Part shown: piece after piece, positions 3,565 to 14,577 of the stretch
Layout of the letters: the number at the start of each line of letters is the position of its first letter
Position numbering within the stretch: position 1 is the stretch's first letter
Origin: Gemmatimonadaceae bacterium
GTDB taxonomy: Bacteria > Gemmatimonadota > Gemmatimonadetes > Gemmatimonadales > Gemmatimonadaceae
Length of the DNA: 64,000 nt
NCBI GenBank assembly: GCA_020846935.1
Contig: JADLCY010000015.1
Span: forward strand, 202,402-266,401
Direction of reading: 5' to 3'
Made by a program: the position numbers and the translations under genes
Notes under the pieces: generated by a model
The model's input: only the letters and a program-made list of their open reading frames with translations
What the model was told of the DNA's origin: nothing
Databases searched by the model: none

Positions 3565-3794
3565 GGGGGCTCCGGTGGGGTCACCTGCTTCAAGGCACCC
3601 TGCGTGCCGCGCAACGCACCGTTGTGGTGCAACGCTTTGCGACCCGCTCCGTCACCCCGGCGGGTCAATCGGTTGTCCTCCCAAACGGGCACGAGCACCC
3701 GTGGCGCTGGTTCTGCCCCGACCCGACGCCGAGCCCGTTGCCGCGCCTCGTACCTGTCAGCATTATCCGCACACTCTTGCTGGGAGGCGTTCTC

Positions 3795-4370
3795 ATGGCG
3801 TCACGCAGGTTGATGCATTCGACGGTTGCCGCCGCCCTGCTCGCACTCGCGCCCATGGTGGGCGCTGCGCAGCAGGCGGAGACAGGACCCAAGGTCGGCG
3901 ACATGGCCCCGGATTTTGCGCTCAGGGGTTCGACGCGCTACGGCATACTTCGCGACCAGGTCAGGCTGTCGGACTATCGCGGCAACACGGTGGTCCTCGC
4001 GTTTTTCTTCAAGGCCAGGACGCGTGGTTGAACAGTGCAAATGGAGGCGTACCGTGATCAGTACGCCACGCTGTTCAACAATGGCCGCAAGGTCGTGGTG
4101 ATCGGGATCAGTGTCGACGCCGACACGGCGCAGTACTCGTGGGCACGCGACGCGAACTTCCCGATGCTCTTTGGCTCGGACCCGGACGGCACCGTCGGCT
4201 CCCTGTACGGCGCCTACGACGCGGCCCGGAAGACGGACAACCGCTCGCTCTACGTCGTCGGCCCCGACGGCCGCATCACGTTCAAGGCCCAGCCGTTCCG
4301 CCAGATGGCGGAAGAGGCCTACACCGAACTTGCCGCCGCCGTGGACAAGGCCTCACCGAAGGAGCCGTAA
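3795..4370 (+). CDS. Secreted peroxiredoxin with in-frame TGA at the catalytic cysteine (putative selenoprotein)
   Basis: AhpC/TSA-type thioredoxin-fold peroxiredoxin, 191 residues if the internal TGA is read through. The start ATG has a GGGAGG ribosome site 7 bases upstream and gives a signal peptide ending MVGAAQQ. The fold reads GDMAPDFALRG, then VVLAFFFKARTRG, then TGA (4029-4031, codon 79), then TVQMEAYRDQY in the same frame. Homologues carry the peroxidatic Cys at this point within TxxC. Downstream segments (VVVIGISVDAD, FPMLFGSDPDG, SLYVVGPDGRI) are intact. TGA replaces only the catalytic residue, the frame is unbroken and a stem-loop starts at the TGA, so selenocysteine is the best reading. 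A simple nonsense mutation is the alternative. The selenium-insertion genes are not in this window. Confidence 0.8.
4029..4077 (+). promoter_or_regulatory. Candidate bacterial SECIS stem-loop
   Basis: The stem-loop begins with the TGA itself. Outer stem: 4029-4037 pairs with 4069-4077 (9 bp, one G-U). Inner stem: 4046-4052 pairs perfectly with 4061-4067 (7 bp) and closes an 8-base loop, CGTGATCA. The asymmetric internal loop is CAAATGGA on the 5' side against a single A. Bacterial SECIS elements lie immediately 3' of the UGA within the coding region, with the apical loop roughly 16-37 bases downstream; here it starts about 21 bases after the TGA. The base pairing is seen directly. SelB binding is inferred. 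Confidence 0.6.
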
Positions 4371-6051: not shown

Positions 6052-6978
6052 ATGTCCAGGATCTTCAAGGTCGGAATCGTCCAGGAAACCGCCGCGTCGC
6101 CCGACATCGCGGCCAACGTCGCGCGCGCGGTCTCCGCCGTGCGTGCCGCACACGCACAGGGTGCGCAGGTCATTTGCCTGCAGGAGCTGTTCAATGCGCC
6201 CTACTTCTGCCAGACGCTCGACATGAAGTGGTTCGACCTGGCGGAGCCGATCCCCGGGCCCACCACCGATCGCATGCAGGCGCTGGCGAAGGAACTGGCC
6301 GTCGTGCTGATCGTGCCCATCTACGAACGCGAGGCCGCGGGTCTCTACCGCAATTCCGCGGCGGTCATCGACGCCGACGGCGCGCTGCTCGGCGTCTATC
6401 GCAAGATGCACATCCCCCACGACCCGCATTTCGAGGAGAAGTACTACTTCGCGCCCGGTGACACCGACGGGAGGGCACTGGCCGCGCCCGGCAAGGTCAA
6501 GGAAGCGGACGGCTTTCGGGTGTGGCGCACGCAGTACGCCAACATCGGCGTCCTCATCTGCTGGGACCAATGGTACCCGGAGGGCGCCCGACTCACGTCG
6601 CTCCTTGGCGCCGACATCCTGTTCTATCCCACCGCCATCGGGTGGCATCCGCGGGAGAAGGCGGAGTTCGGCGAGGCGCAGGTGACGGCGTGGCGCACGA
6701 TCCAGCGTGCGCATGCGATTGCCAACGGCGTCTTCGTGGCGTCGCCGAATCGCGTGGGCTTCGAGACCGCGGCCGGCAGCGACGGCCTCGAGTTCTTCGG
6801 CAACTCCACGATCTACGACCCGTTCGGCCGCATCCTGGCCGAGGCGGGGACGGAACCGACGGTGCTCGTCGCGACGTGCGATACCGCGCGCATCGAGGAC
6901 ACGCGTCGCAACTGGCCGTTCCTCCGCGACCGTCGCATCGACGCGTACGGTGGACTCTCCTCACGGTTCCTTGGCTGA
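6052..6978 (+). CDS. aguB: N-carbamoylputrescine amidase
   Basis: A 308-residue nitrilase-superfamily amidohydrolase that converts N-carbamoylputrescine to putrescine, CO2 and ammonia, the last step of putrescine synthesis from agmatine. The catalytic triad is visible: Glu45 in ICLQELFNAP, Lys118 in YRKMHIPHDPHFEEKYYF and Cys170 in GVLICWDQWYPE. The HIPHDPHFEEKYYFAPGD block and the WDQWYPEGAR block are typical of AguB rather than of other nitrilases. The start ATG follows a 215-base gap. The 3' end abuts or overlaps the agmatine deiminase gene, so the two form an operon encoding consecutive steps. Confidence 0.95.
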   Translation: MSRIFKVGIVQETAASPDIAANVARAVSAVRAAHAQGAQVICLQELFNAPYFCQTLDMKWFDLAEPIPGPTTDRMQALAKELAVVLIVPIYEREAAGLYRNSAAVIDADGALLGVYRKMHIPHDPHFEEKYYFAPGDTDGRALAAPGKVKEADGFRVWRTQYANIGVLICWDQWYPEGARLTSLLGADILFYPTAIGWHPREKAEFGEAQVTAWRTIQRAHAIANGVFVASPNRVGFETAAGSDGLEFFGNSTIYDPFGRILAEAGTEPTVLVATCDTARIEDTRRNWPFLRDRRIDAYGGLSSRFLG

Positions 6979-9694: not shown

Positions 9695-9828
9695 CGCGCA
9701 GCCGCGGGCGCGGGCCGTCGTTACGGCCGCGACGTTCGAGTGTTTCGCCGCGGGAACGTGAGCCGGCTCACACGTTGCGCGGCGTTCGCCGCCGACGTCT
9801 GTACATCGTGACCCATTCACCATTCCCG

Positions 9829-10926
9829 ATGGCCGCGCGACGCCTGGTCGTGGCGGCGCTTGCGTGCGTCTGCGCCTGCGACCGCGGGGACTCGACGATC
9901 CACATCGGCGCCGCCGGGAACTGGCGGGAATCGTACGGCGTGATGGGCAAGCGTGGCATCGACCTCGCCACCGAGGAGATCAATGCGCAGGGCGGCGTCC
10001 GCGGGCGCCAGCTGAGCGTGATCGCCGAAGAGGACAGCAGCGATGGATCGCGCGCGGTGCGCGTCGCGTCCCGGTTCCTGGCCGACCCGTCCATCGTCGG
10101 AGTGATCGGGCATCTCGAGTCCGGTACCATGGTGGCTGCCGCGTCGGTCTACGATCAGGGACTGCCCGCGATTTCCAGCACGGCCACGAGCCCCTCGCTG
10201 TCAGGCATCTCGCCGTGGGTGTTTCGCGTCATCTCGTCCGACTCCATGAACGGCCGCGACATCGCCGCGCACGCACGACGCGCAGGCCTGCAACGCGCGG
10301 CGGTGCTGTACGAAAACAACTCCTACGGACGCGGGCTCTCCGATGCCTTCGCCCGGCACTTCGCCGGTGAAGTGGTGGCGAGCGACCCGATCGCTTCGGA
10401 CTCGACTTCTGACCTCGAGCCGACGATCGCATGGCTTCGCCGCATGCGGCCCGACGTGGTCTTCGTCGCCGGAACCGCCGCGTCAGGCATCGCGGTGTTG
10501 CGCGAGGCCAGGCGACAGGGCCTTGCGGCGTCGTTCATGGGCGGCGACGGATGGAGCGGCGTGGTCTCGTCAGGCAGCCTCGCCGAGGGTGTGCTCGTGG
10601 CCACGCCGTTCGCGGTCGGAGACCCACGGGAAGAGGTGCGACGCTTCGCGCAGGCCTTCCGCCAGCGGTTCGGCGTCGATCCCGACCAGAACGCCGCTCT
10701 GGCCTACGACGCCACGCGACTGCTGGCCCGTGCGATCGAAGAGGCCGGCGCCTCGCGTCAGGCCGTGCGCGACTGGCTGGCCAACTCGCTCTCGGGTGCG
10801 CCGTACCAGGGCGTGACCGGATCGATCCAGTTCACGCCGTCCGGCGACGTGGTCGGCAAGAGCTTCGTGATCACGCGGATCCGGAACGGCGGCTTCCACG
10901 TGGAGGGCTCGGCGCGTGGCAGCTGA
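9829..10926 (+). CDS. LivK-like periplasmic binding lipoprotein (Peripla_BP_6)
   Basis: A 365-residue type-I periplasmic binding protein of the branched-chain amino acid/amide family. The ATG at 9829 gives [13 protein letters not shown], a short lipoprotein signal with Cys13 (further Cys at 15 and 17); in-frame GTG codons further upstream are alternatives. Typical segments: [55 protein letters not shown] and [18 protein letters not shown]. Its last 11 bases overlap the start of a chemoreceptor gene. It therefore probably acts as the ligand-sensing partner of that receptor rather than as part of an importer, since no transporter genes adjoin it. Confidence 0.88.
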
Positions 10927-12637
10927 ATCCGCGGCCGCACTCGTCAGGCTCGGGAGCCTTCGGCAACGGCTCTTTGCCGGCTTCGGGCTGCTGACCCTCC
11001 TCTTCGTGCTCGCCGGACTGGCCGCGCGCGCCGCCGTGGGACGCATGTCCGACGTGATCGGCGAGACGCTCGCGTCCGTGCAGGCGGACGCGCAGCTCTC
11101 CTCGCGATTGTCCGCGTCGGTCACGCAGGAGCTGGCGGCCGCCGATCGCTACCTCGTCTCCCGCGACACGGCGGACCTGACGGCGTTCCGTCGATCCGGA
11201 GCCGCCGCGCACCGCGCGCAACGCAGCATGGCGCTGCAGCTCGCCACATCACGCGATGAGGCCGCGCTGATCGCCGCGATCGACCAGCAACTGTCGACCG
11301 TCGAGGTGCGGTATGCGCGCGCACATCGACTGGCCGACCTCGAGCGTCCGGCGGAGGCCATGCGCGAGGCCGCGCTCGCCCGACGTGGCATCGAGGAGCT
11401 GACGCGCGATGTGCAGTCGCTCGATGCGCTCAAGACCACCAGCGTGGAGTCGGCGTCGCGCTCGCTGCGCCGACAGGCCGACCAGCGGACGCTGTGGGTG
11501 CTCGTGATCATGGGCGTGGCATCCGTGCTGGGACTCGTGGTCGTGTTCACGACGGTGAGCTGGGTGACGCGACCGATGCGGCGTCTGGCGTCGCAGGCGC
11601 GCGCGTTGAGCAGCGGGGACTTCGCCCCGCAGTCGCACGACGACCTGCCGCTCGAGTTTCGCGGTCTGGCCGACGCGCTCAACGGCGCCGCGTCGTCCCT
11701 GGCCCGCGTGGTGAACGTGACATCCATGACCGCCGACGACGTCTCGGGCTCGGCCCGCGAACTCGCCAACGTGTCCGAGCAGATCTCCGCGTCCGCGAGC
11801 CAGATGGCCGCGTCGATGAGTGACATCTCGTCGAGCGCCGACAGCCAGGTGCGACAACTGCGCGCCGTCGACGAAGCGTTGCGCGCCATCCAGGACAATG
11901 CCGTGGAAGTGCTGCGCGGCACGGATGAAGTGGGCGGACTCGCCGGCGAGATCGAACATTCGGCCCGCGCCAAACGCGCCGAGATCGAGCGCTCGCTCGG
12001 CATCCTCGTGATGGTGCGCAGCACCGTGGGTGAAGCGGCGGGCGAGGTGCAGGCGCTGCAGGGCACCGCGGACCACATCAACCGGCTCGTGGCGTCGGTC
12101 GGTCGGATCGCCGAGCAGACCGACCTCCTGGCGCTCAACGCGGCCATCGAGGCGGCCCGCGCGGGCGCGGCGGGGCGTGGGTTCGGCGTCGTCGCTGACG
12201 AAGTGCGCAAGCTCGCCGAGCAGGCGCAGGTCGCGGCCGATGACGTGACGCAACTGACCCGATTGGTGACCAACCGCGTGGCATCGACCACGCGCGCCAT
12301 GGAGCTCGGCGTGCAACAGGTGTCGGAGATCGAGGGCGTTTCCCGCGAGCTCGACTCGGCGCTCAACACGATCACGCTCGCCGCGACGCGCACGCGAGCA
12401 GCCGCCGGGGCCGCCGCGGACAAGGCTCGCGGCAATGCACAGTTTGTGGCCAGCGCCGCCCGGAGTGTGGAATCGGTCGCCCGTACCGCCGAGAGCTATG
12501 CCGCCGCCGCGCAGCAGGTCAGCGCGTCGACGCAGGAACAGAGCGCCGCGTGCGAGCAGATGAGCTCCGCCTCGACCCAGCTGCTCCAGGGCAGCGTCCA
12601 GTTGCGCGAACTCGTCGGGGGACTGGGCCGCAGCTGA
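10916..12637 (+). CDS. Methyl-accepting chemotaxis-type transducer
   Basis: A 573-residue membrane receptor that signals to a CheA/CheW kinase complex. The start is GTG, overlapping the preceding binding-protein gene by 11 bases (translational coupling). Layout: TM1 about residues 18-40, a periplasmic four-helix-type domain to about 190, TM2 about 193-216, HAMP ([21 protein letters not shown]), then a long coiled coil with the highly conserved tip [22 protein letters not shown]...[17 protein letters not shown] at about 397-437. No C-terminal CheR-tethering pentapeptide is seen. The coupling suggests that the upstream lipoprotein delivers ligand to this receptor's periplasmic domain. Confidence 0.92.
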
Positions 12638-13758: not shown

Positions 13759-13866
13759 CGGGCGGTGGGCAGGGCCTCAACGGCGGTAAACAACAGCGAG
13801 GGTCGCGACGCCCCATGAGGATTGCTGATTACCTTTGCCTCGACAATCCCCCCAACCGCACGGCCG

Positions 13867-14577
13867 GTGTCCCCCGAAGGTCCTGCCCTTGCCCCCTCAG
13901 CCGTCCTGCTGCTGAGCGGTGGCCTCGACTCCACCACCTTGCTCGCCCTCGCCCAGCACGAGGGTCGCCGCGTGTTTGCCCTTACGTTCCGGTACGGCCA
14001 GCGGCACGAGGGCGAGATCGAGGCCGCGCGGCGGATCGCGCGCGCAGGGGGAGTGGCCGATCACGCGGTCATCGACATCGACCTGCGGCGTTTCGGGGGC
14101 TCGGCGCTCACCACCGCCGTCGACGTGCCGAAGGACCGACCCCTGGACGACCCCTCGGCGGGCATTCCGATCACCTACGTCCCTGCGCGCAATACGATCT
14201 TCCTGTCGTTTGCGCTTGCGTGGGCGGAAGTCCTCGACGCCGGCGAGATCTGGATCGGCGTGAATGCGCTGGACTACAGCGGGTATCCCGACTGTCGCCC
14301 GGCGTACGTGGCGGCGTTCGAGACCATGGCGAACCTGGCGACGCGGGCCGGCGTCGAGGGCACGCGCCCGGTGAGGATCCGCGCGCCGCTCATCGAGCTC
14401 ACCAAGGCGCGCATCATCGCCCTTGGCACGTCGTTAGGCGTGGACTACGCGTCGACGACGAGCTGCTACGACCCCGCCCCCGACGGTGCGGCCTGCGGCC
14501 ATTGCGACGCCTGCCAGTTGCGCCGTCGCGGATTTGCCGAGGCCGGCGTGGCCGATCCTACCCGGTACAGCCCGTGA
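13867..14577 (+). CDS. queC: 7-cyano-7-deazaguanine synthase
   Basis: QueC converts 7-carboxy-7-deazaguanine to preQ0 using ATP and ammonia, a step in making queuosine for tRNA. About 236 residues. The ATP-pyrophosphatase P-loop SGGLDSTT lies at residues 17-24. [37 protein letters not shown] and [17 protein letters not shown] are conserved blocks, and the zinc site is formed by SCYDP and CGHCDAC near the C-terminus. The start is set at GTG 13867; TTG 13822 would add 15 residues. It is followed 7 bases later by queE. A TCG-TTA-GGC (Ser-Leu-Gly) octamer lies inside. Confidence 0.95.

Follow-up and report, generated by a model that had tools for sequence, protein, structure and literature searches.

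Locus and reading frame

A peroxiredoxin-family gene lies at positions 3795 to 4370 of the window, a stretch of 64,000 nucleotides from the genome of a Gemmatimonadaceae bacterium (contig JADLCY010000015.1), and a single in-frame TGA at codon 79 of this gene is predicted to encode selenocysteine (Sec). The initial annotation described this TGA within an otherwise open frame, which is correct: the only other stop is the terminal TAA. The features of the locus, which include a candidate selenocysteine insertion sequence (SECIS), are as follows.

3782..3787, + strand: possible ribosome binding site GGGAGG, 7 nucleotides (nt) 5' of the ATG, read from the sequence
3795..4370, + strand: predicted Sec-peroxiredoxin gene, 191 codons when read through, stop TAA; PF00578 match at E 4.8e-25
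3795..3869, + strand: signal-peptide-like N-terminus, residues 1-25, recognized by eye from the sequence; pLDDT (structure-prediction confidence) is low in residues 1-30
4008..4010, + strand: codon of phenylalanine (Phe) 72, at the proline (Pro) position of PxxxTxxC, placed by alignment of copies and database homologues
4029..4031, + strand: predicted Sec codon TGA, codon 79, on the peroxidatic cysteine (Cys) column; TGA 103, TGC 18, TGT 1 in 122 copies
4029..4077, + strand: outer 9-base-pair (bp) stem, not conserved; all 9 pairs present in 2 of 83 TGA copies
4046..4067, + strand: conserved SECIS-like core, a 7-bp stem with the 8-nt loop CGUGAUCA, marked by pairing, covariation and synonymous constraint

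The 191-residue read-through protein matches AhpC-TSA (PF00578) over residues 34-163 and Redoxin at E 2.6e-13. Profile match and structure comparison both place it within the AhpC-TSA domain and fold, and its nearest structures are the 1-Cys peroxiredoxin AhpE and Bcp. The local motif FFFKARTRG-U-TVQ puts the UGA on the peroxidatic Cys of TxxC. There is no Cys elsewhere in the window protein, nor in the 84 TGA and 19 Cys rows of the family alignment from -49 to +112 around the site. The resolving Cys is thus absent, as in the 1-Cys type, and the product would be a one-Sec enzyme. The N-terminal residues suggest that the protein is probably exported. The genome has nine AhpC-TSA matches, and a TGA lies inside only this gene, whose database entry is a 109-residue fragment cut after the UGA.

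If the UGA were a true stop, the locus would encode two short proteins, the second starting from a GTG at 4035; an open reading frame of 111 amino acids (4035-4370) does appear in the list of open reading frames. Such a split would cut the peroxiredoxin domain at its catalytic residue and place the GTG inside the domain, and the Cys-containing relatives are one continuous protein. This arrangement is rejected on those grounds as very improbable.

The UGA codon in relatives

The gene was taken from 110 loci: 30 from genomes of the phylum (this one included) and 80 from named records, with some overlap between the sets. All of the named records are metagenome-assembled genomes, and their titles give Gemmatimonad- or Longimicrobiales names in 76 cases, uncultured bacterium in three, and Candidatus Kuenenia in one. 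Copies that did not align over residue 79 were dropped, uncounted, and 122 remained. The initial annotation placed the TGA exactly on the catalytic Cys column, and the relatives bear this out: 103 copies carry TGA and 19 a Cys codon, with no other codon at the site. The in-frame UGA is therefore aligned with the Cys of homologues, as it is in selenoproteins.

A nonsense mutation or sequencing error could convert TGC or TGT to TGA by a single base change, and the truncated database entry would fit a dead gene. Yet the same TGA recurs in 103 of the 122 copies, distinct relatives among them, and each TGA copy has one clean TGA, with no further internal stop and none of the scattered mutations that were named at the outset as the sign of a dead gene. 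The frame is also open over all 191 codons, and the codons 3' of the TGA are under extra rather than reduced constraint (see below). Since the TGA is common to distinct relatives, the pseudogene reading is rejected, with a probability close to nil.

Several loci contain more than one copy. Eight loci (L077, L078, L086, L095, L096, L097, L101, and L105) contain both forms side by side, first the Cys gene and then its Sec paralogue at a distance of about 560 bases. Loci L073, L114, L124, and L132 have two Cys copies each; those of L124, which is titled Candidatus Kuenenia stuttgartiensis, group with Gemmatimonadota copies, and the title is perhaps a binning error. In one genome without selB, a stop-free copy stands in tandem with another that has a single in-frame TAG (G086:C1:259796-260359). 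Two same-genus genomes have a further AhpC/TSA-like match, a distant one at 33% identity with a single internal TGA (G257:C361:1603-1989 and G354:C585:3400-3789); no counterpart was found among the AhpC-TSA matches of the genome that contains the window.

Selenium-decoding machinery

The source genome (4.5 Mb in 15 contigs, given as 100% complete) encodes the entire machinery that the initial annotation held to be necessary, namely selA, selB, selC, and selD, as is expected of a genome with selenoproteins. All scores exceed their cut-offs: selA at 536 bits (267.9), selB at 358.9 bits (242.25), selD at 370.3 bits (125), and the selenocysteine tRNA (tRNA-Sec) at 70.2 bits (gathering score 47). 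ARAGORN also calls the latter SeC, with anticodon tca. Two of these genes adjoin each other.

C13:9840-9932: tRNA-Sec, beside selD
C13:10109-11029: selD (L009), with an in-frame TGA in CAG-TGA-AAK near its start

This one internal TGA of selD is at what we take to be the usual catalytic place. Judged by its sequence, SelD is probably itself a selenoprotein, and the genome would then probably encode at least two.

The search was extended to 395 genomes of the phylum, 387 of which have a match at E ≤0.001, distant family members included. In at least 128 of the 395, the source genome among them, a copy is interrupted by a single stop, which is a TGA. Among the 128 listed TGA-copy genomes, 116 have selB over the cut-off, as compared with 282 of 395 overall, and ten of the remaining 12 have tRNA-Sec at 66.6-78.9 bits. 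Of eight selB-less controls, four scored 49.6-50.4 bits, which is over Rfam's 47, and four gave nothing. The second match in the source genome (46.6 bits) is a tRNA-Ser according to ARAGORN, and scores at or below 50 bits are accordingly taken as probable tRNA-Ser.

The reciprocal comparison used 20 of the 98 genomes without a selB match. The best copy is stop-free in all 18 of those outside the genus. The other two, G257 and G354, belong to the same genus, are in about 900 contigs, and have a TGA copy without selB over the cut-off; tRNA-Sec is present in both, and G257 also has a piece of selA at a contig end. Among the matches listed, ten genomes have only stop-free copies, and seven of these lack selB over the cut-off.

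These data also bear on a selenium-free reading, in which an altered code or readthrough would place tryptophan (Trp) or Cys at the UGA. One database protein (P0004) does have Trp at the site. Against this stand the whole Sec machinery of the genome and the selB-less relatives, which have Cys codons or no stop; moreover, TGA ends several other genes of the window (among them 6052-6978, 9775-10926, 10916-12637, and 13822-14577), so UGA is not reassigned throughout. Decoding as another amino acid is rejected for these reasons and is given scarcely any weight.

The hairpin downstream of the UGA

The initial annotation described a 49-base hairpin that begins at the TGA and comprises 9-bp outer and 7-bp inner stems. 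Both stems are present in the window copy; the inner stem-loop proves to be conserved, whereas the outer stem does not. The arms of the inner stem occupy 4046-4052 and 4061-4067, and the distance from the UGA to the loop is 21 nt. The region 4020-4090 folds at -27.3 kcal/mol (z -2.24), a stability reached by 6 of 200 shuffles, and synonymous recoding of the window copy gives z -3.3, with 0 of 500 recodings as stable.

Removal of identical 120-base pieces leaves 83 TGA and 19 Cys copies. All seven inner pairs form in 69 of the 83 TGA copies and six pairs in the other 14; among the Cys copies, one has six pairs and none has seven. The loop is CGTGATCA in 79 of the 83. For covariation, 48 aligned sequences (47 distinct) were picked from the 83 for diversity. 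In the 47, 96.0% of inner-stem cells are paired, as against 9-44% for slid versions of the stem, and two pairs have changed on both sides (to U-A, A-U, and C-G). No shuffle of 500 reached the observed paired fraction, number of changed cells, or covariation score; 19 reached the number of changed pairs, and 6 the number of pair types. For the outer stem, the corresponding five measures were reached by 18, 484, 63, 474, and 8 of 500 shuffles. This stem is thus unsupported as part of the SECIS element, being complete in only two of the 83 distinct TGA copies.

Codon usage was compared in the same region. In TGA copies, codons +6 to +11 have a mean normalised synonymous entropy of 0.069, versus 0.620 in 28 other codons. 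The same hairpin codons in Cys copies have an entropy of 0.714 (five codons), versus 0.537 elsewhere. In TGA copies the six hairpin codons show almost no synonymous variation, and in Cys copies they vary freely.

In the available text of a 2026 review (PMC13188914), the bacterial SECIS model has a G within the first two loop positions, 16-37 nt from the UGA. The stem, small apical loop, G in the first two positions, and 21-nt spacing of the hairpin agree with this model, as the initial annotation had anticipated of the sequence after the UGA. A SECIS model, R1, run on the source genome at E up to 10, matches this gene only, among 150 of 3010 candidates scored, so further elements may be missed; R1 has no match at the selD locus at E up to 1. 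The R1 scores of 17 Cys copies (19.6-51.6 bits) and seven TGA copies (77.5-83.7 bits) are by themselves no evidence, because R1 includes coding sequence.

Selenocysteine as the predicted reading of codon 79

Three lines of evidence converge on Sec: the position of the TGA on the Cys column, the constraint on the hairpin in TGA copies only, and the presence of selA, selB, selD, and tRNA-Sec. The in-frame UGA at codon 79 of this peroxiredoxin-family gene is accordingly predicted to be read as Sec, with a probability of about 90%, and the hairpin at 4046-4067 likely directs the insertion. SelB carrying Sec-tRNA would bind the hairpin as the UGA enters the A site.

Some of the observations weigh against this prediction. 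Two genomes have a TGA copy and no convincing selB or tRNA-Sec: G286 (tRNA-Sec at 49.6 bits; 85% complete) and G363 (no tRNA-Sec; 77% complete). The three other genomes with only stop-free copies, among the matches listed, are selB-positive. The outermost pair of the inner stem is broken in 13 of the 47 covariation sequences. The amino acids alone favour pairing, in that 55% of synonymous recodings keep at least six of the seven pairs (78 of 78 observed). The energy effect across the family is modest, with a mean z of -1.13 for 78 distinct TGA proteins versus -0.09 for 18 Cys proteins.

The active-site proline

PxxxTxxU is highly conserved in Sec peroxiredoxins according to the available text of PMC13188914, and the corresponding text of a structural paper describes the Pro as a barrier to solvent (PMC3337327). 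The window protein has the Thr and the predicted Sec of this PxxxT/SxxC(U) motif, with Phe72 in place of the Pro; it is a peroxiredoxin by fold and descent whose motif has changed. In the 83 TGA copies, position 72 is F in 31, Y in 26, P in 19, I in three, V in two, and S in two, and the Pro is therefore absent from 64; the Thr position of TxxU is T in 81 and S in two. All 19 Cys copies have P. The best 120 of the 2449 database homologues include 117 with Cys at position 79, every one of which has Pro. The other three are the fragment of the window gene and two proteins with W and L at 79, which have Y and F at 72. These two entries, P0004 and P0041, are full-length, and their genes most probably have the TGA and were translated under a different code.

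In this Gemmatimonadota sample, no Cys form lacks Pro, and Sec permits the loss of Pro. A selenol may need less shielding, in which case a pocket with selenium could do without its solvent-shielding Pro and accept Phe or Tyr instead. An unrooted tree of 222 sequences, built with columns 72 and 79 masked and not read for the direction of change, requires at least 11 Sec/Cys changes in its best form, four of them forced by well supported branches, and at least 13 Pro changes. The coupling is weakened by the small number of supported independent pairs (four), which in most pairings give two that differ the same way, none that is opposite, and two with no difference, a result that is not significant. 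It is also weakened by the 19 of 83 TGA copies that retain Pro, so that the loss of Pro is allowed by Sec and not required. With these counts in mind, we somewhat favour a coupled pair, in which the Gemmatimonadota enzyme switches between a Cys form (always with Pro) and a Sec form (usually with Phe, Tyr, Ile, Val, or Ser), selenium frees the site from Pro, and the Sec proteins make up a separate subfamily of exported one-Sec peroxidases.

As a putative peroxidase, the enzyme would use its selenolate to attack the peroxide O-O bond, and an outside thiol would reduce the resulting selenenic acid, since the protein has no other Cys. The changed motif also raises the alternative that Sec is inserted into a selenium-dependent oxidoreductase or reductase of another substrate. 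The absence from 64 of 83 TGA copies of the Pro described as a solvent barrier (PMC3337327, in the text available) and the lack of a Cys partner or a nearby reductant gene are in its favour; retention of the Thr of TxxU, the lack of a UxxC pair, the AhpE and Bcp structures as nearest neighbours, and the full motif in 19 TGA copies make it unlikely. With this family one could test what makes the active-site Pro necessary in peroxiredoxins: if the need is confined to the thiol, a Phe form changed from Sec to Cys should be severely impaired, except when Pro is introduced as well.

Relation to known selenoproteins

Sec peroxiredoxins are an established selenoprotein family, as the available texts of PMC13188914, PMC9312934, PMC1088965, and PMC1794560 state, and the first of these cites a 2001 paper for them. 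PrxU-type proteins (PF00578/COG1225; e.g., of Eubacterium acidaminophilum, NF040737) likewise have Sec at the peroxidatic TxxU of an AhpC/TSA protein, and known Sec peroxiredoxins likewise have the SECIS within the coding region (PMC13188914 and PMC9312934, in the portions available). The window protein nevertheless scores 59.6 bits against NF040737, below the cut-off of 270, and lies outside that equivalog; it differs from the PxxxTxxU motif by Phe for Pro, and has a signal-like N-terminus and no other Cys. AhpE of Mycobacterium tuberculosis, a 1-Cys peroxiredoxin with 27-30% identity, has Cys rather than Sec and lacks the signal-like extension in the alignment. Against Bcp/PrxQ (NCBIfam Bcp-type PRK09437), the window protein scores 51.8 bits of the 140 needed and has no second Cys. 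The peroxiredoxin-like thiol:disulfide oxidoreductase selenoproteins (UxxC, UxxU) belong to the same Pfam family and contain Sec (PMC9312934, in the portion available), but the window motif is TxxU, with no Cys or second Sec after it.

Literature searches, as far as their listed titles and abstract openings show (20 of 61 and 20 of 134 in two cases), yielded no Gemmatimonadota Sec peroxiredoxin and no report of Pro loss in Sec peroxiredoxins; one selenoprotein paper, PMC3281104, mentions Gemmatimonadetes a single time. What is new is a widespread variant, which at least 128 of the 395 phylum genomes carry and which has no family model of its own; Sec peroxiredoxins as such are already known.

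Genomic neighbourhood

Across 81 neighbourhoods of the gene, many of them incomplete, no reductant gene stood out. An open reading frame like that at 6052-6978 of the window, presumably N-carbamoylputrescine amidase-like, lies near the gene in 39 of the 81.
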